Positions 12,690 to 41,490 of a stretch of 64,000 nucleotides of DNA are shown here, one piece after another. The stretch's first letter is position 1. Each line of letters begins with the position of its first letter. This DNA is from Sphingomonas sp. 67-36 (GTDB lineage Bacteria > Pseudomonadota > Alphaproteobacteria > Sphingomonadales > Sphingomonadaceae): assembly GCA_001897375.1 (NCBI GenBank), contig MKSU01000013.1, positions 62,001-126,000 of the forward strand, read 5' to 3'. Position numbers and translations under genes: made by a program. The notes below the pieces were generated by a model. It did no database searches. It saw only the letters and a program-made list of their open reading frames with translations, and had not been told where the DNA came from.

Positions 12690-15380
12690 GTGAGCGCGCT
12701 TCGGGATAGCGTCGTCCGGGAACGGGCGTCCGGTTTGGCAGACGAGCTGCCGCATGTGACACTCGTCCTTGCCGGCCACGTGAGGCTGGTGGCCAACTCA
12801 ATTCCCATCCGTGTCCGTACACGCAAGGCGCGCGCATTGGCCGCTTTGGTCGCATACCATCCAAATGGGGCGTCGCGTCAGCGGCTGATCGGTTTGCTTT
12901 GGCCGGATCGCGCGGAGGATCAGGCACGCGCGAGCCTTCGGCAGGCGATCTATGAGCTTCGCGGTCATCTCGGCAGCGAGGCGTTCGCCCTTTCTGACGA
13001 CCGGATAGCCCTCGCACCCGGAAGCCTGACCAGCGATATCTCGGAAGCCGAGGCTGCGGCGGATCGCGGCGATCACGGCGGCCTGTACGAGGCCCTGGGC
13101 GGGATGGACACGCTCGTGCTGGGCGGTCTTGACGGTATTTCCGATGAGCTTGACGACTGGCTTCGAACGGAGCGGCCGAACCTCGCCGCGCGCATCGCCG
13201 GTCTCGGCAGGGCGGCTGCCGAAAGAATCTTCCCGTCGGACGCCGGCATGGCCCGCGCGCTGTGCGATCACGCGCTTCGCTTCGATCCGTTTGACGAGCG
13301 CTCGCTCCGCCTTGCGCTGCAAATCGATGCCGCGCTGGGCGATCAGGCGCAATTGCATCGCCGCTATCTGGCATTCGAGCAGCGGCTGGGATGCGAGATC
13401 CAGGCGGCACCCGCCGCCGAGACGAGGCGCCTTTTCGAAAGGCTGCGATCACCTTCCGGCGGCGGGGATCGACTAATCGAGGTGCCGGGCGGACACGCGC
13501 CGCACGCCGCGACCATGCAGCCCCACCCACGGCCGGAGCCGGCGACACGGCGGCTGCGCATCGGCTGGCCGGTACTGGCTGCCGGTTTCGGCCTGATCCT
13601 GCTGCTCGCGGGTGCTTACGCCGTCTTCCTTCACCAACGCGTGCGCCCGACGTCCATTCCAACCGTTGCGGTCGTGCCGTTCACGACGCTCTCGGGCAGC
13701 AATCAATATATCGCCACCGGCATTGCCGACGAGGTTCAGGACCGGCTTGCGCACCAACCCGGCGTGCAGGTGCTCGGCCGGTTCACGGCGCACCAGTTCC
13801 GTGCCGGAAGCGATTTGCTGGCCGATGCGCGGCGCGTGAACGCCACCTACGTGCTCGACGGCACCGTGCAGGCGGACGGGCCTCGCCTGCGCGTGATCGT
13901 GGGGCTGACGCGGGTGTCGGACGGCGTGCTGGTCTGGTCGAATCGCTTCGATCAGGGGACCGACGATCTCTTCAAGGTGCAGAGCAGCATCGCGGCGGCG
14001 GTCGCGGCGCGCTTCGGCGGCGGCGCGCGCAGGCCGGCCGCGCACGGAGTGTCCCCGCTTCCGGCGGTCTATGACCATTATCTTGCCGCGCGCGTCCTCA
14101 TGCGCGATCGCCGCGCGGTATCGCTCGCCGCCGCGGACCGCGCGTTGCGGCAGGTGATCGCCGCCCAGCCCGACTATGCGCCTGCCCATGCGCTGCTTGC
14201 CGAAGTGCTGTTGCTGGAAGCGGAACATCCGGTTTCCTATGGTACGCTGCCCTTCGCCAGCACGCGGCGCGAAGCGCGGGAGGAAGCGGAGCTTGCCGCC
14301 CGGCTCGATCCCCAGCTCGGCGAGGCGCAGGCCGCGCTCGGGCTGCTCACCTACAGCAATGCCGCGTCGCTGCCTTTCTATCGGCGCGCCGTGGAGCTCG
14401 ATCCGCAGCGCGCGGATTTCCACCGCTGGTTCGGCCAGTCGCTGATGGCGACCGGGCATATCGAGGAGGCTTTGGACGAGTTTCGCCGCGCGGTCGCGAT
14501 CGATCCCCTCTGGGGGCTGAGTTACGAGCATCTGATCGTGGCGCTCGATCGCGCCAACCGCGGCGCGGAGGTGGCGCCGCTCGTGCGCCGCTTCCTCGCG
14601 CTGTCGAACGACGAGCGCGCGCGGGTCCAACTGCTGTTCACCGATGCGACGGTGGGCAATCGCCTCGCCGATTCATTGCGCTACGCCCAACGCTTTGTCG
14701 AACTCGCGCCAGGAGATCGGCAAGCGAAATTCCGGTACGCGTCCGAGCTCGCCGCGCTTGGTGCGATCGACGTCGCGAGCAAGGTGATCGACCGCAATGA
14801 CTGGATCGGGCGCGCCGTACTGGCGAACAGATCGCAGGATCTCGTCAGCGGCATTCGCGCCCACGCCGATTCTTTCTGGGACGTGGGCTCAGGGTTCTGG
14901 GGGGTGGACGACTATTTAGTGGCGCATGGCCAGGGGCCGGTGCTGCTGGAAGTCTTCGATCGCCGCTTCGATGGCGTTGGCCATTTCCGGCCAGGCGAAC
15001 TGCTCGATCCATTCGAAACGGCCGCTCTGGTGGTGGCGATGCGGCAAGCGGGCCGACTGGCGCAGGCGGATGAATTGCGCGCGCGGCTCGCCCGGCAGGT
15101 CCGCGTCGAGAACGCGACCCGCCTCAAGCCCGAAATCATCCTGCTCGACCGGACGGTGCTGAACGCGCTCGATGGCGATCGGGCGGGCGCGTTCAACGGC
15201 CTCGAAACGCTCAGTCGCATCGCGCCGCAGATGCTGCTTGGCACCCCGTGGCGCCCGCTCGCGGAGATCGCGGCTTTCCACACGCTCGCCGGCGATCCGC
15301 GGCTGACGGCAATAGATGAGCGCCTTCGCGCGGCGCTGAATCGCGAGCGGCGCAAGCTCGGCTGGGCGCCGCTTCGGTAA
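12690..15380 (+). CDS. Membrane-anchored SARP/BTAD transcriptional regulator with TolB/FlgO-like and TPR domains
   Basis: About 896 aa from GTG 12690 (AAGGGCGG just upstream); the open frame extends to 12555. The N-terminal 100 residues are a SARP-type winged-helix domain (KARALAALVAYHP, LLWPDRAEDQARASLRQA). A bacterial transcriptional-activator (BTAD) helical domain runs to about residue 255. One transmembrane helix lies at about 292-312. A FlgO/TolB-N-like domain starting VAVVPFTTL and containing VLDGTVQ and VLVWSNRFDQ spans about 325-440, and TPR-like repeats continue to the C-terminus. This is a ToxR/CadC-style layout: DNA binding inside, sensing outside. It is 105 bp upstream of a TBDR-like gene whose promoter carries three 11-bp-spaced repeats, so it probably controls that gene. 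Confidence 0.82.
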   Translation: MSALRDSVVRERASGLADELPHVTLVLAGHVRLVANSIPIRVRTRKARALAALVAYHPNGASRQRLIGLLWPDRAEDQARASLRQAIYELRGHLGSEAFALSDDRIALAPGSLTSDISEAEAAADRGDHGGLYEALGGMDTLVLGGLDGISDELDDWLRTERPNLAARIAGLGRAAAERIFPSDAGMARALCDHALRFDPFDERSLRLALQIDAALGDQAQLHRRYLAFEQRLGCEIQAAPAAETRRLFERLRSPSGGGDRLIEVPGGHAPHAATMQPHPRPEPATRRLRIGWPVLAAGFGLILLLAGAYAVFLHQRVRPTSIPTVAVVPFTTLSGSNQYIATGIADEVQDRLAHQPGVQVLGRFTAHQFRAGSDLLADARRVNATYVLDGTVQADGPRLRVIVGLTRVSDGVLVWSNRFDQGTDDLFKVQSSIAAAVAARFGGGARRPAAHGVSPLPAVYDHYLAARVLMRDRRAVSLAAADRALRQVIAAQPDYAPAHALLAEVLLLEAEHPVSYGTLPFASTRREAREEAELAARLDPQLGEAQAALGLLTYSNAASLPFYRRAVELDPQRADFHRWFGQSLMATGHIEEALDEFRRAVAIDPLWGLSYEHLIVALDRANRGAEVAPLVRRFLALSNDERARVQLLFTDATVGNRLADSLRYAQRFVELAPGDRQAKFRYASELAALGAIDVASKVIDRNDWIGRAVLANRSQDLVSGIRAHADSFWDVGSGFWGVDDYLVAHGQGPVLLEVFDRRFDGVGHFRPGELLDPFETAALVVAMRQAGRLAQADELRARLARQVRVENATRLKPEIILLDRTVLNALDGDRAGAFNGLETLSRIAPQMLLGTPWRPLAEIAAFHTLAGDPRLTAIDERLRAALNRERRKLGWAPLR

Positions 15381-15401
15381 ACATGTGATGTCCGGGACGA
15401 T

Positions 15402-15434
15402 TTGACCCGGCGTTGACGCTGCGTTGACGCGACG
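15402..15434 (+). promoter_or_regulatory. Three tandem TTGAC repeats at 11-bp pitch (SARP-type operator)
   Basis: TTGAC begins at 15402, 15413 and 15424, and each 11-nt unit ends in CG. SARP regulators are known to bind heptameric direct repeats spaced one helical turn (11 bp) apart next to the -10 region. The array sits between the SARP/BTAD regulator and the TBDR-like gene, 52 bp before the latter's ATG. The layout fits direct activation of the receptor gene by its neighbour. Confidence 0.6.
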
Positions 15435-15485
15435 GACGGGCGATCAGGCGATGATGGCGCCTCGTTTGAACATCCGCGAGGCATC

Positions 15486-17426
15486 ATGCGCCCCCCACGC
15501 CCGACCCGGACCTGCTCCGCGTTCCCGCTCTTGCTGTTCGGCATGGCGCTGGCGCAGCCGGCGGCCGGGCAACGCACCGACGACAATGCCGTGCGCAGCG
15601 CCGAAGATGCTTTCGGCACCACTGTCGGCAATGAGAATATCGGCCTCTACACCGCATATGACGTTCGCGGTTTCAGCGCGATCGATGCGGGCAACGCGCG
15701 GATCGACGGCCTTTATTTCGATCAGCAGATCGACCCCGTCAGCCATCTCGTCAGCAAGACGAGTGTTCGCGTCGGCATTTCGGCGCAGGGCTATCCGTTG
15801 CCGGCTCCGACAGGAATCGTCGATTATTCGCTCGTCCGGGCCGGGACGAAGCCGATCAGGAGCTTGCTCATCAGCGTTGGGCCATTCGGGGGCGCCGATC
15901 TGGAGGCAGACCTGCAACTGCCGGTGCTTGCCGATCAGCTGAGCCTCGTTGCGGGAGGAACGCTGACCCGTACCGATGATGGTTACGGCGCTCGCGGAGG
16001 GTACGCGAACGCAGCGATCATGCCACGCTGGTCCCCGGCCTCCAATGTCGAACTGATCGCTTTCGCGAGCGGTAGCTGGGCGTGGGGCGAAGCCGCGCAG
16101 CCGGCGATCTTCGTGAACGGTCCTCACCTGCCGCCACCGGTGGAGCGGGATCGCTTCTACGGCCAGGATTGGGCGCGCAATCGAAACGCCGGCGCGAATT
16201 TCGGTGTGCTGGGCAGGATCGATATCGGTCGTATCGTCGCCCGCGTCGGCGTCTTCCGATCGAGCTTCGTCCAGTCCCGCAATTTCTCGGATCTCTTCCT
16301 CAATGTCGATCCCGACGGAAAGGGCGATCATCTGATGATCGTCGATCAGGGCTCCCGCTTCGCCTCGGTTTCGGGCGAAATGCGTGTGAGCTATAATTTC
16401 GGCAACGCCACCACGCCGCAGATACTCCACTTCGTGCTGCGCGCGCGCGACCAGCGGCGGCGCTACGGCGGCTCCGACCTGATCGATCTTGGCACCGCGA
16501 TGGTTGGCGTGCCTGATCCCCAGCCGGAACCCGTTCTGGCGTTCGGCCCACGCACGCGTGATCGCGTGCAGCAGGAAACGGCCGCGATCGCCTATGAAGG
16601 CAAGCTATTCGGGCGGCTGGAGCTTAGCGCCGGATTGCAGAAAGTTCGCTACAGGAAGGATACGATCTCGCCCGACGCGTCCGCGCCGATCGAGAGCCGC
16701 TCCGCCCCGTGGCTGGTGAACCTGGCGGCTGCTTTGCGGGCCACCCGGCGGCTCGCCGTCTATTCAAGCTTCACGCGAGGGCTCGAGGAGGGCGGCGTCG
16801 CACCGGCGAATGCGGCCAACAAGGACGCGGCGTCACCCGCGCTCAGGACGCGTCAGGTTGACGCCGGGATACGCTATGCATTCAGCGACTCCTTCCGCTT
16901 CGTCATCGGTGTGTTCGATGTGCGCAAACCCTACTTCAACGTCGACCGGAACGGCGTGTACCGGCAACTCGGCGATGTGACGCAAAGCGGTGTTGAAACC
17001 TCTCTGACGGGTACGCCTTTCAAGGGCCTGCACCTCGTCGCCGGAAGCCTTTTCCTGAAACCGCGAGTCACGGGAGAAGAGGTGGAGGCCGGCCTGATCG
17101 GTCGCAAGCCAATCGGGCAAACCGGGCGGCTCACCATCGTCAGCGCGGATTATGAGCTCGCTTGGCTCCCCGGGATTTCGCTCGACGCAACCGTAACCAG
17201 TGTTGCCTCCCGCATGGCGAGCGCGGACAACAGATTATCGATTCCGGCCCGTTCGCTTCTAGACCTCGCTGGACGATACCGTTTCTCGGTCGGACGCGCA
17301 TCCGCGACCTTAATCTTGCGAGCCGGCAACGTTTTTGACACGTTCGGTTGGCGAACGAACTCTTCGGCCGTTTTTGTGCCCACTACCCAGCGAAGGGCGA
17401 GCCTGACGTTGGTCAGTGATTTCTAG
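15486..17426 (+). CDS. TonB-dependent receptor-like outer-membrane protein
   Basis: 646 aa. A signal peptide of about 29 residues (ends PAAG) is followed by a short plug-like region (YDVRGFSAIDAGNARIDG) and a beta-barrel with alternating hydrophobic strands. The C-terminus ends LVSDF, the usual terminal aromatic of Omp85-assembled barrels. It is shorter than typical TBDRs (700-900 aa), and I see no clear TonB box or LRGPQG motif. It may therefore be a divergent receptor or a receptor-derived porin. It follows the SARP-like regulator and its tandem operator, so the two form a regulator-receptor module. No ribosome-binding site is strong (CGCGAGGC before ATG). The substrate is unknown. Confidence 0.78.
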   Translation: MRPPRPTRTCSAFPLLLFGMALAQPAAGQRTDDNAVRSAEDAFGTTVGNENIGLYTAYDVRGFSAIDAGNARIDGLYFDQQIDPVSHLVSKTSVRVGISAQGYPLPAPTGIVDYSLVRAGTKPIRSLLISVGPFGGADLEADLQLPVLADQLSLVAGGTLTRTDDGYGARGGYANAAIMPRWSPASNVELIAFASGSWAWGEAAQPAIFVNGPHLPPPVERDRFYGQDWARNRNAGANFGVLGRIDIGRIVARVGVFRSSFVQSRNFSDLFLNVDPDGKGDHLMIVDQGSRFASVSGEMRVSYNFGNATTPQILHFVLRARDQRRRYGGSDLIDLGTAMVGVPDPQPEPVLAFGPRTRDRVQQETAAIAYEGKLFGRLELSAGLQKVRYRKDTISPDASAPIESRSAPWLVNLAAALRATRRLAVYSSFTRGLEEGGVAPANAANKDAASPALRTRQVDAGIRYAFSDSFRFVIGVFDVRKPYFNVDRNGVYRQLGDVTQSGVETSLTGTPFKGLHLVAGSLFLKPRVTGEEVEAGLIGRKPIGQTGRLTIVSADYELAWLPGISLDATVTSVASRMASADNRLSIPARSLLDLAGRYRFSVGRASATLILRAGNVFDTFGWRTNSSAVFVPTTQRRASLTLVSDF

Positions 17427-17502: not shown

Positions 17503-18828
17503 TTACGTTGACGGAAGCCGCATCCGAACGAGCAGGCCGCCCATTGGGCTGACGTCGAAATTCAGGCTACCGCCGTACAAACCGGCCAGCTCGGCGGCGA
17601 TCGAAAGCCCGAAGCCGTGCCCATCGCTTCGCTCATCCAGCCGGGTGCCGGGCAAGGTAACGCGGGACCATTCGTCTGGTGGTATGCCCGGGCCGTCGTC
17701 CGCGATCTCCAGCCGGACCTGCCGGACCTCCGCGGTGTCACGACGCGCAGTGACGATGACACGGCGTTGGGCGTGTCGCGCGGCATTGTCGAGCAGGTTG
17801 CCGATCAGTTCGTCCAGATCGCGGGGATCGACCTGGACCGCGATGTCGCCGGCGACGTCGGTTTCGATCGACAGCCCCTTCGTCCCGTGGATGCGGCCGA
17901 CCGCGACCGCCAGATCGGCGACGGCTGGAGCCAGAGGGGTCGAGGTGCGGCGATTGACCGCTTCCACGCGGGCGCGGGCGAGATGGTGGCGGATCGTGGC
18001 GTCGATGCGCGCCACCTGCGCCGCGCGCGCCGGCTCGTCCCGCACGTCGAGCGCCAGGGTGGCAACGGGCGTCTTGAGGGCGTGGGCGAGATTGGCCGCC
18101 GATTGCCGCGCCGCCGCCAACGCCGCGGCATTGTCGCGCGCGAGCGCGTTGAGCTCCATCGCCAGCGGCTGCAATTCGGTCGGCTGGTCCTCGTCGATCC
18201 GCGATCGCGCGCCGCTGCGGATGGCGGCGACCTGATCGCGCATGAGCCGCAGCGGACGCAGGCCCAGCCGTAGCTGGAGGAGCGTCGCGAGGCCGAGCAG
18301 CGCGGCAAGCACGGCCAACGCGCCGAGCAGCGGCGCGATTGCCTCGCGGATCGGCTGGCGCACCACGTCACGCGGCGCGGCGGCGGTCAGCACCACGGGG
18401 CCGCGCCGCGTCGCGATCGTCAACTGGCGCGCATGGACCCGGACCCCGTCCTCGCTTCCCCCATCGAGCGGGTGCAGCCGGTTCGCGCCGCCGGGCGGAG
18501 GTGGAGGAGCCGGGGGACCGTCATCTAGGACCGGGAAATCGGCGGAGCCGACGGTCTGGCCGGGCGCAGCGATGCGCCAGCGCCAGCCCGGACCATTGTC
18601 GAACGCGCCCAGCCGCTGCTCAAGCCGCGTCCGGTCGATGCGGCCATCGGCGTCGACCGCGCTGGCGAGAAGCGCCACCTCGGCGTCCAGCCGCCGGTCG
18701 AGCCCCTGCATGACGAACCGTTCGAGCACGCCGGTGAGCGCCCAGCCTGCCAGCACCAGCGCCACCACGGTAGCCACGGCCGACAGCGCCAGCATGCGCG
18801 CGTGCAGGGAGCGGGGCAGCAGGCGCAT
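17503..18828 (-). CDS. Two-component sensor histidine kinase (PhoQ/QseC-like)
   Basis: 441 aa. Membrane helices at about 12-34 and 163-185 enclose a periplasmic sensor of about 125 residues that contains a Pro-rich stretch (PPAPPPPPGG). HAMP-like and dimerisation segments follow, with the H-box NLAHALKTPVA (His249), then the ATPase N, G1 (DDGPGIP) and G2 (GHGFGLSI) boxes. It autophosphorylates on His249 and passes phosphate to the adjacent response regulator. It starts 3 nt after that gene's stop, so they form one operon. HALKTP rather than HELRTP is typical of the PhoQ-like group. The signal is not evident; divalent cations, peptides or envelope stress are possible. Confidence 0.9.
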   Translation of the reverse strand: MRLLPRSLHARMLALSAVATVVALVLAGWALTGVLERFVMQGLDRRLDAEVALLASAVDADGRIDRTRLEQRLGAFDNGPGWRWRIAAPGQTVGSADFPVLDDGPPAPPPPPGGANRLHPLDGGSEDGVRVHARQLTIATRRGPVVLTAAAPRDVVRQPIREAIAPLLGALAVLAALLGLATLLQLRLGLRPLRLMRDQVAAIRSGARSRIDEDQPTELQPLAMELNALARDNAAALAAARQSAANLAHALKTPVATLALDVRDEPARAAQVARIDATIRHHLARARVEAVNRRTSTPLAPAVADLAVAVGRIHGTKGLSIETDVAGDIAVQVDPRDLDELIGNLLDNAARHAQRRVIVTARRDTAEVRQVRLEIADDGPGIPPDEWSRVTLPGTRLDERSDGHGFGLSIAAELAGLYGGSLNFDVSPMGGLLVRMRLPST

Positions 18829-18831
18829 CGC

Positions 18832-19500
18832 CTAGATCGCTTCCGCGCAATGGAGGCGGTAGCCGCGCCCGCGCACGGTCTCGATCAGCTGCGCGCCGAT
18901 CTTCTTGCGCAGCCGGCCGACGATGACTTCCAGACTGTTCGAATCGACATCGGCGTCACCCTCATAGACGTGCTCGAGCAGCTCCAGCCGCTCGATCACC
19001 GCCTCCTTGCGCAACATGAGCTGCGACAGCACGCGCCATTCGAAGGCGGTGAGGCGGAGCGGCAGCCCCTCCAGCTCGAACTGCCCGGTCTGCGTATCGA
19101 ACGTCAGCGGCCCGCATTCGAGGCGCGGCTGGCCGTGGCCGGCGGCCCGGCGCACGAGCGCGCGCAGCCGCATCACCAGTTCCTCGATGCGGAACGGCTT
19201 GACGAGGAAATCGTCCGCCCCGGCCTTGAAGCCCGCCACCTTGTCCGACCAGCCGTCGCGCGCGGTGAGGATCAGGACGGGAAGGTCACGCTTCGCGTCG
19301 CGCCACGCGCGCAGGACGGATATCCCGTCGCGCCCCGGCAGGCCCAGGTCGAGCACCGCCGCGTCATAGGCTTCGGTCTCGCCGAGATGGGCCGCGTCGA
19401 TACCGTTTCCGACCAGATCGACTGCGAAGCTCTCGCCGCGCAGCGCCCGCGCGATGGTCGGCCCGAGATCGGCGTCGTCTTCCACGAGCAGGATACGCAT
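18832..19500 (-). CDS. OmpR/PhoB-family response regulator (QseB/PhoP-like)
   Basis: 222 aa. The receiver domain has the acidic pair EDD (7-9), phosphoacceptor Asp51 (VLDLGLPG) and Lys in LVKPFR. The C-terminal winged helix is of the OmpR type (LTAFEWRVLSQLM, SNSLEVIVGRLRKK, TVRGRGYRL). It controls transcription when phosphorylated by the downstream kinase. The start ATG is at 19500. An 11-bp-pitch direct repeat (19523-19540) lies 23-40 bp upstream, so autoregulation and control of the divergent OB-fold gene are likely. Confidence 0.92.
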   Translation of the reverse strand: MRILLVEDDADLGPTIARALRGESFAVDLVGNGIDAAHLGETEAYDAAVLDLGLPGRDGISVLRAWRDAKRDLPVLILTARDGWSDKVAGFKAGADDFLVKPFRIEELVMRLRALVRRAAGHGQPRLECGPLTFDTQTGQFELEGLPLRLTAFEWRVLSQLMLRKEAVIERLELLEHVYEGDADVDSNSLEVIVGRLRKKIGAQLIETVRGRGYRLHCAEAI

Positions 19501-19610: not shown

Positions 19611-20234
19611 ATGAACAATCGATGGGTTCCCCAGATCAGCCCGGGCGCGAAGCTCGGTCTGGGCGCCGCCGCGCTGCTCGTGCTGGGCGCGGCCGGCGGC
19701 GCGGGCGCGATGTCGCTCACCCGGCCGACGGTGGAGATGGCGCCGACCGTCCCCACCCCGGTGTCGCGGCTGGCCGATGCGAGCGGCGTCGTGACGGTGC
19801 GCGGCCGCGTCGCGGAAGTCTATGGCGACCGCTTCACGGTGCAGGACGCGACCGGCAGGGCGCTGGTCGATGCCGGTCGCGGCGGCGACGCCACGGTCCG
19901 GGCCGGCAGCCCGATCATGGTGCAGGGCCGGTTCGACAATGGCCAGCTTCACGCGCGCTATCTCGTGGATGCCGGCGGCACGGTTCAGGAGGTCGGTGCG
20001 CCACCCCCGCCGCCGCCCGGACCGCCGCCGCCTCCTCCACCCCCGCCGCCGGGTGGACCGGGCGCGGTTCCCCCGCCGCCTCCACCGCCACCGCCGGGGG
20101 CCGGAATGCCGGCCGGAGCGGGCGAGATCGCGCCGCCGCCGCCTCCGGCCGGTGCCCCGCCGCGCGGGAACCTTCAGCCCCCGCCGCCGCCCGCCGGTCA
20201 GGCGCCAGCGCCAGCGCCCGCGACGAACGGCTAG
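19611..20234 (+). CDS. Membrane-anchored OB-fold (YgiW/BOF-like) protein with proline-rich tail
   Basis: 207 aa. An N-terminal hydrophobic segment (about 13-35) could be a signal anchor. A small beta-rich domain at 59-128 (VVTVRGRVAEVYGDRFTVQD, ALVDAG) has the pattern of periplasmic bacterial OB-fold (BOF) proteins. The remaining 75 residues are almost all Pro, Gly and Ala, with poly-proline runs. In enterobacteria ygiW sits beside the qseBC two-component genes, and the same arrangement is seen here. A role in envelope ligand binding or stress under control of the adjacent system is inferred. The ribosome-binding site GAGGAG precedes ATG 19611. Confidence 0.7.
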   Translation: MNNRWVPQISPGAKLGLGAAALLVLGAAGGAGAMSLTRPTVEMAPTVPTPVSRLADASGVVTVRGRVAEVYGDRFTVQDATGRALVDAGRGGDATVRAGSPIMVQGRFDNGQLHARYLVDAGGTVQEVGAPPPPPPGPPPPPPPPPPGGPGAVPPPPPPPPPGAGMPAGAGEIAPPPPPAGAPPRGNLQPPPPPAGQAPAPAPATNG

Positions 20235-40302: not shown

Positions 40303-41490
40303 ATGTCGACCGCGATCGATTCCGTGCTGCCGCCGTTCCCCGCCGATGCCGGGCCGGCGCCGGAAAGCTGGGGCAAGGTGGCGCGCATCGTGATCTTCAG
40401 CGCGATCGTGCCGCTTGCGCTGCTCGTCGCGCCGGTGCTGACGACACAGCTCATCGCCGAGCGCGGGCTGACGCCGGCCAATGTCGGCAATTACTTCCTG
40501 TTCGAGCTGGGCGGCATCAGCCTCGCCTCGCTGCCCGCCTTATGGTGGATGCGCCGCTTCACCTCGCGCCGGATCGCGACCGTCGCGGCGGCGGTGTTCG
40601 TCGCCGGCAATCTGCTGTCGACCGTGGCGCCGGACATCGCCGTGCTGTTCGCGACGCGGCTGGTGACGGCGATGGCGGGCGGCGCGCTGATGCTGCTCTG
40701 CCTCAACGCCGCCGGGGCGTCGGGCAATCGTGACCGGCTGTTCGGCTGGTGGATCGCGGGACAGCTCGTGCTCGGCGCGATCGGCCTGTCGCTGCTGCCG
40801 CGCCTGTTCGCCGGTTTCGGGCTGAACGCCTTCTACCTGCTGATGGCGGCGATGATGGCCGCCGCCTTCCCGCTCGCCTTCCGCTTCGACGCGCCGACGA
40901 TCGAGCCGGCGCGCGGCGGGGAGCGCCGGGGCGGGATGCTGCTCCCCGCCGTGGCGATGATCGCGGTGTTCGCCTTCTATATCGGGCTGGGCGGAAGCTG
41001 GGCGTTCATGTCGGTGATCGCCGGGCGCTCCGGGCTGAAGCCGCTGCCGGTGGCGGACACGATCGCGATCGCCTCGCTGCTCGGCATCGCGGGGGCGCTG
41101 CTGGCGACCTTCCTCGGCGGACGGGCGAAGCGCTGGATGGCTTTGTCGGCCGGCTATGCCCTGCTGTTCGGCGCGGTGCTGATGCTGCTCGGTCGCCTCG
41201 ACATGACCGCCTTCGCCGGCGCGGCCTATGCGTTCAAATTCTCGTGGACCTTCACCCTGCCCTTCATCCTCGCCGCGATCGCCGGACGCGACACGAGCGG
41301 CGGGATCATGGCGTGGATCAATATGGTGATCGGCTTCGGCACCTCGATCGGGCCGGTCATCACCGGGCGGATATTGGGCGGAGCGGGCGCGGAGACGATG
41401 CTCATCTTCTGCGCGGCGATGATCGCGGCCAGCTTCGTCCTGCTGCTGCTGATCGAAGGCGGCGCGGTGACGCGCGCGGAAAGGACATGA
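40303..41490 (+). CDS. MFS transporter
   Basis: 395 aa with about 12 hydrophobic segments and no extra domains. The N-terminus is polar and is followed by VARIVIFSAIVPLALLVAPVL. Conserved loops such as WWMRRFTSRRIAT separate the helices. It resembles permeases found in catabolic operons and probably moves the amine or acid product across the inner membrane. The ribosome-binding site GGGGGAG is good. It lies 12 bp after the deacetylase and 1 bp before the NTF2-like gene. Confidence 0.82.
   Translation: MSTAIDSVLPPFPADAGPAPESWGKVARIVIFSAIVPLALLVAPVLTTQLIAERGLTPANVGNYFLFELGGISLASLPALWWMRRFTSRRIATVAAAVFVAGNLLSTVAPDIAVLFATRLVTAMAGGALMLLCLNAAGASGNRDRLFGWWIAGQLVLGAIGLSLLPRLFAGFGLNAFYLLMAAMMAAAFPLAFRFDAPTIEPARGGERRGGMLLPAVAMIAVFAFYIGLGGSWAFMSVIAGRSGLKPLPVADTIAIASLLGIAGALLATFLGGRAKRWMALSAGYALLFGAVLMLLGRLDMTAFAGAAYAFKFSWTFTLPFILAAIAGRDTSGGIMAWINMVIGFGTSIGPVITGRILGGAGAETMLIFCAAMIAASFVLLLLIEGGAVTRAERT

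Follow-up and report, generated by a model that had tools for sequence, protein, structure and literature searches.

Why should the short gap between a gene for a regulator with a predicted membrane anchor and a gene for a receptor-like outer-membrane protein contain the same pentamer three times, at exactly one helical turn? We addressed this question for a locus in a 64-kb stretch of Sphingomonas DNA (here called the window), and the answer that we think likely is that the regulator is a one-component membrane receptor, with a SARP-type head that would bind the repeat array and activate the adjacent receptor gene on a periplasmic signal. Table 1 gives the positions of the features discussed.

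Table 1. Features of the regulator/receptor locus, in window coordinates (aa, residues of the regulator)
Feature	Position	Strand	Basis
Gene of the 896-aa regulator (SARP head, one membrane helix, CadC-like alpha/beta domain and TPRs)	12690-15380	+	GTG start assumed, TAA stop
SARP DNA-binding head, aa 23-253: OmpR-type winged helix and BTAD-type helices	12756-13448	+	Profile, AF2, Foldseek
Predicted DNA-recognition helix, aa 76-94	12915-12971	+	Model helix; aligned to AfsR recognition helix
Single membrane helix, about aa 295-315	13572-13634	+	Kyte-Doolittle hydropathy; model helix 301-315, low confidence
Presumed periplasmic alpha/beta sensor domain, aa 325-441	13662-14012	+	Model secondary structure; CadC 3ly8 match
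TPR-type helical array, aa 458-889	14061-15356	+	Pfam TPR_11 and TPR_17 above cut-off; model
Putative operator array, three heptamers at 11-bp pitch	15401-15429	+	Window counts, matrix score, L201, family-wide tests
Putative target, TonB-dependent-receptor-like outer-membrane protein, 646 aa	15486-17426	+	TIGR01783; L201 homologue

The gap between the two genes (15381-15485, 105 bp) contains ATTTGACCCGGCG TTGACGCTGCG TTGACGCGACG. As the sequence-only reading had described, TTGAC occurs in it at 15402, 15413 and 15424, with a pitch of exactly 11 bp and with every 11-mer ending in CG. A heptamer describes the unit better: TTTGACC (15401-15407), GTTGACG (15412-15418) and GTTGACG (15423-15429), with CGGC and then CTGC as separators; a fourth unit, frequent in related arrays, is poor here by unit score. 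The array lies 85 bp before the receptor start at 15486. Within the window, TTGAC-N6-TTGAC is found just at these two overlapping places, against 0.01 expected from 100 shuffles, and an identical 5-mer triple at pitch 11 appeared in 0.065% of 20,000 random 105-bp draws from a first-order model of the window. There is one other pitch-11 triple in the window, at 41367, and many 5-mer triples at pitches of 15, 18, 21 and 24. The 4.0-Mb genome has the TTGAC triple at this one place; two other loci in it (L279, L280) hold looser two-unit matches without a good third unit. Of 295 genomes of the genus, 5 have the triple, this one included.

TTGAC is also the core of the sigma-70 -35 element, and the repeats could thus be a chance feature, or a tandem duplication made by slippage, around a -35 box that has no dedicated regulator. 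Perfect tandem TTGAC 11-mers do occur elsewhere in the genus: they make up the triple in three of the four other genomes (G150, G070 and G325, not G088), and in the short stretches around them (L105, L107, L109) no SARP gene was spotted by eye. The units of the window array, however, differ pairwise at 2 of 11 positions, which argues against slippage or chance duplication, and similar arrays recur beside diverged SARP genes, with spacers and neighbours that differ. We therefore regard an origin by chance or slippage as extremely unlikely. In the usual SARP layout the 3' repeat lies 8 bp upstream of the -10 element; read by eye, no convincing -10 stands 8 bp past 15429.

The head of the regulator was compared with known proteins by sequence and by fold. 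A profile of 52 heads (the window protein and 51 relatives) matches EmbR (1.5e-21) and AfsR (5.6e-21) among PDB proteins, along their heads. Pfam BTAD is matched by 49 of the 52 rows, the window row being among those without a match, and Trans_reg_C by 24. Taken alone, the window regulator reaches neither Pfam cut-off (18.7 bits where 22.1 are required, and 18.4 where 26.2 are); its sub-threshold Trans_reg_C match covers aa 40-97, and its best BTAD stretch falls in the TPR region. The AF2 model of the head has a mean pLDDT of 91, and the top solved structures in a Foldseek search with it are AfsR (8k60, 2.6e-10) and EmbR (2ff4). The OmpR-type winged helix continues into a BTAD domain and is not a plain OmpR-type head; because the BTAD domain is present, the regulator is not a plain ToxR-like receptor. 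Judged by domain and by site, the head is clearly classed as SARP. At E ≤ 0.001 the same genome holds no second match to the regulator, and a Pfam BTAD search of it returns this protein alone, in its TPR part, a result that is uninformative on other SARPs.

The remainder of the protein looks like a membrane-anchored sensor. The hydrophobic segment at about 295-315 reaches a Kyte-Doolittle value of 2.3 over 19 residues, compared with 1.2 for the next separate segment. In the full model (mean pLDDT 85, pTM 0.68, with pLDDT below 50 for 256-321, membrane helix included) an alpha/beta domain at 325-441 is followed by TPR-type helices up to 889. Among the best 50 PDB fold matches, the periplasmic domain of CadC (3ly8) ranks 44th with a TMt of 0.66, the others being the AfsR head and large proteins of TPR or helical-repeat type; with moderate confidence, the model thus suggests that the sensor half resembles the CadC periplasmic domain. 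The SARP head, single hydrophobic helix and TPRs of the sequence-only reading are backed by these results, but its TolB/FlgO-like domain has no counterpart among the Pfam matches at E up to 1, and the resemblance is to CadC instead. This layout would place the C-terminal half in the periplasm and the head in the cytoplasm. Four relatives of the sensor half (L148, L150, L152, L153) carry heads that look TIR-like by eye and have no SARP head; the CadC-like/TPR half therefore seems common to different signalling heads.

The putative target lies on the same strand as the regulator. TIGR01783 matches it at E 8e-20 and 71 bits, below the cut-off of 223.5, and no Pfam match appears at E up to 1. Its homologue at locus L201, which is 52% identical, matches PF00593 at 89.5 bits (cut-off 27); a Pfam Plug match is absent in the window receptor and in its L201 and L034 homologues. 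Behind the receptor gene, a histidine kinase (17503-18828, minus strand) and an OmpR-family response regulator (18832-19500, minus strand) were recognized by eye as a convergent pair, and an ORF at 19611-20234 (plus strand) encodes a protein that terminates in long polyproline runs. Homologues of the receptor (E ≤ 1e-30) occupy 21 places in 18 other genomes among the 150 nearest. In the stretches fetched around these 21 places (one of them, L045, a 5.6-kb contig) the regulator is found beside none, and the array lies upstream of none, the best score being 6.3 against 19.5 for the window. The absence of the array at receptor homologues without the regulator nearby argues further against a chance duplication.

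To what extent is the arrangement conserved? A search of the 294 other genomes of the genus, with the top three candidates of each scored, turned up no full-length relative of the regulator, and a scan of genome contigs with the lone protein found nothing. This genus-level absence was first read as a refutation, a reading overturned by order-wide relatives. In 396 genomes drawn from a larger group, with two candidates per genome scored, near-full-length relatives with 31-40% identity were found, the four listed all belonging to one other genus of the family; a further search of that genus added three more. The same heptamer at 11-bp pitch adjoins the other full-length relatives examined, and many arrays have four units, at positions 1, 12, 23 and 34 or 35. 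Taking as target the longest ORF that follows the array in the same orientation, so that its strand holds by definition, we find arrays before TonB-plug or outer-membrane-barrel genes (L144 and L145 by Pfam; L161, L187 and L190 by eye), before PAP2 genes (L149 and L155 by Pfam; L191 by eye) and before convergent genes for secreted proteins (L146, L147, L188, L189 and L193, with a Pfam PD40 match for L147 and low array scores of 13.5 and 11.6 for L189 and L193). Two head-only SARPs (L194, L195) have arrays before a small exported-looking gene, UrcA in L195; L254, where the SARP has a membrane helix, likewise has an array before an UrcA gene. No array was seen at L196, nor at L197, a contig-end fragment. 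In L190 the regulator is split into two overlapping frames, by a frameshift or a sequencing error, and the array before the neighbour gene is present.

The closest parallel comes from a Phenylobacterium metagenome-assembled genome (sp. GW715_bin.37, locus L201), the sole homologous regulator/receptor pair found. Its regulator relative is nearly full-length (35-37% identity), its receptor is 51.7% identical to the window receptor over 619 aa and has that protein as its best match among 22 compared, and the gap between the genes carries TTTGACGCGGCTTTGACG / TTTTGACGCGGCTTTGACGATCGTTTGCG, 90 bp before the receptor start. The two pairs are homologous, but the head tree speaks against strict orthology: it puts L201 with the L144 set, which has a different outer-membrane family as neighbour, and not with the window head, whose own place is unsettled. 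The check proposed with the sequence-only reading, whether the repeats are conserved at related pairs, thus did not refute it: L201 has the array in the same gap, and arrays stand beside the other full-length relatives examined. The arrays are neither specific to sphingomonads nor bound to TonB-dependent receptors, as their PAP2, PD40-type and UrcA partners show.

To assess the array across the family, we built a TTTNACG matrix from 29 heptamers of 11 arrays, all from other genomes and none from the window, chosen by eye after TTGAC had already been seen. With this matrix the window array has the highest score over both strands, 19.5 against 9.4 for the runner-up and 11.5 for the best of 30 resampled windows (resamples here and in the locus, motif-free and unit-score tests are first-order). 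For a wider test we scanned named genomes with the regulator alignment and kept the best 80 of 136 loci; removing 20 at more than 60% identity left 60 non-redundant SARP loci. These were fetched by protein similarity, and three of them (L188, L189, L193) come from the genus of most training loci. In 31 of the 60 (29 upstream, 2 downstream) the best two-unit array at pitch 11 is no more than 200 bp away from the SARP gene, where 2.5 would be expected by length; in the other 29 it is not at the SARP gene, and at several loci, for example L154, L213 and L225, no array exceeds resampled sequence. At pitches of 7-10 and 12-18, between 4 and 17 of the 60 loci have their two-unit array near the SARP gene; these other pitches are lifted too because of the position bias of AT-rich flanks. 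Three-unit arrays near the SARP gene number 26 loci at pitch 11 versus 2-15 at other pitches.

A count that uses no motif gives the same spacing. Counted over the 60 upstream flanks, pairs of identical 5-mers are most frequent at 11 bp (84 vs 25.9 expected, z 9.4) and next at 22 bp (75 vs 22.3, z 8.1), with 21 bp raised as well (z 5.1), a periodicity that again speaks against chance duplication. The flanks downstream of the SARP genes have no 11-bp peak; unexplained excesses occur there at 18 bp (z 5.2) and at 12 bp (z 3.7). These tests support the view that an operator-like array recurs next to SARP heads of this family, and the repeated motif is very probably the docking site of the regulator. 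In a head tree whose bootstrap is not settled, and with membrane-helix labels set by a hydropathy threshold, the anchored form clusters in the sphingomonad/Caulobacter group (18 of 29 rows, versus 7 of 44 others). Because most heads outside that clade belong to proteins in which no clear membrane helix is seen, the array appears to go with the head and not with the anchor.

Direct repeats of about 11 bp are also usual for the OmpR/PhoB family, and the array might instead serve another member of it, most obviously the response regulator encoded with its kinase just downstream, 1.4-2.1 kb behind the receptor gene. Against this, the array type tracks SARP genes across 60 loci picked by the SARP protein alone, no response regulator was spotted by eye in the gene lists of L144 and L201, and no exact TTGAC-N6-TTGAC lies near the response-regulator promoter. 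We consider this assignment very unlikely.

Two further sets of loci were noted. Head-only SARPs of 370 and 362 aa occur in two genomes of the genus (L093, L094), in loci of 8 and 14 kb with three and two TTTGAC-N5-TTGAC pairs, one of them upstream of a 743-aa TonB-dependent-receptor-like gene; by its best three-unit score neither locus rises above resampled sequence (2 and 3 of 40), and a multi-site regulon is possible. Five gammaproteobacterial SARP heads (L208, L212, L219, L271, L275) have a TTTAATG variant repeated 13-72 bp upstream of the gene. These proteins are long (1475, 1489 and 2293 aa, with L271 and L275 running off their contigs), and with the TTTNACG matrix L212 is the one locus of the five that singly beats all 40 resamples.

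The available text on AfsR describes two 11-bp direct repeats bound side by side by one protomer each, with the upstream repeat overlapping the -35 sequence TTCAGC and sigma region 4 engaged (PMC10936776). The TTnAC core of the family would fit the TTCA of that site. AfsR residues W74, Q81, R87, T88, S91, R92 and R94 align to W71, Q78, R84, Q85, Y88, E89 and R91 of the window regulator. We looked for covariation between the recognition helix and the variable fourth base of the heptamer in the 36 loci with two well-scoring units, dropping the others. The counterparts of the AfsR base contacts, the near-invariant Q85 and E89, do not covary with it (p 0.90 and 0.98). An association with the variable base is seen at residue 88 (p 0.003, uncorrected for the 15 positions tested) and at positions 76 and 77 (p 0.03 and 0.02), and the five loci with tyrosine at 88 have G in 9 of 10 units. 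This is suggestive only of a role for residue 88 in tuning the fourth base, because its AfsR counterpart, S91, is described as contacting the backbone (PMC10936776).

Together these observations outline a mechanism. A flexible linker and a single membrane helix would connect a cytoplasmic SARP head of winged helix and BTAD domain to a periplasmic sensor of CadC-like alpha/beta and TPR parts. The head may bind the heptamers of the array one helical turn apart, probably with one protomer per unit, beside the receptor gene's -35 region or on top of it, and contact RNA polymerase as in AfsR, so that the adjacent outer-membrane receptor gene is switched on. The trigger would be the periplasmic half meeting its signal, perhaps the receptor's own ligand. 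Binding of the head, its activating effect, the membrane orientation and the periplasmic signal are all things we infer. The head might instead bind the array and repress, or activate constitutively, the C-terminal half then serving for assembly and not as a sensor. The array starts just 20 bp past the regulator stop, so that a bound head could act as a roadblock, and no ligand is known; but AfsR and SARPs generally are described as activators in the available text (PMC10936776), and the CadC-like fold suggests sensing. Repression or constitutive activation is thus unlikely, and a signal-responsive activator is the reading we prefer.

Beyond this locus, we lean slightly towards the idea that proteobacterial CadC-like sensors with SARP heads form a portable switch, in which each would have its own array beside it, a fourth base tuned by residue 88, and different exported targets in each lineage: TonB-dependent receptors, PEP-CTERM PAP2 proteins, PD40 proteins and UrcA. 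What the data predict for proteobacterial SARP heads is a DNA code of TTTNACG units at 11-bp pitch, with which a regulator and its target could be paired from the sequence alone. The membrane-anchored form of SARP that they describe would pass an outside signal straight to one envelope gene. Among the literature matches listed, in a search mostly outside the subscription literature, no title or abstract describes such a membrane-anchored SARP system.

The system combines traits of known families. To our knowledge, HilA has no membrane helix; the HilA/EilA-type family (NCBIfam PRK12370) shares with the regulator a weak match over aa 325-606, the alpha/beta and TPR region, at 27.8 bits against a cut-off of 589. 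With the SARPs AfsR (Streptomyces coelicolor) and EmbR (Mycobacterium) it shares the head of winged helix and BTAD domain, the 11-bp direct repeats and the TTnA core. SARPs are described as activators of antibiotic biosynthesis (PMC10936776); SARPs of the AfsR/EmbR type stand beside antibiotic clusters, whereas the window system is proteobacterial and stands beside envelope genes, has a membrane helix and a CadC-like/TPR half where AfsR and EmbR have NOD or FHA domains, and places Q85 and E89 at the base-contacting T88 and R92 of AfsR. In ToxR-like receptors, as the available text presents them, one membrane helix lies between a periplasmic sensor and an OmpR-type head, which in CadC is a winged helix preferring AT-rich DNA (PMC5430869). 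With CadC of Escherichia coli, the nearest of these receptors, the regulator has in common a DNA-binding head, a single membrane helix, a CadC-like C-terminal domain and a one-component design, and by analogy it may work like CadC. In contrast to CadC, its head is a full SARP head of winged helix and BTAD domain, with regular heptamer arrays nearby.
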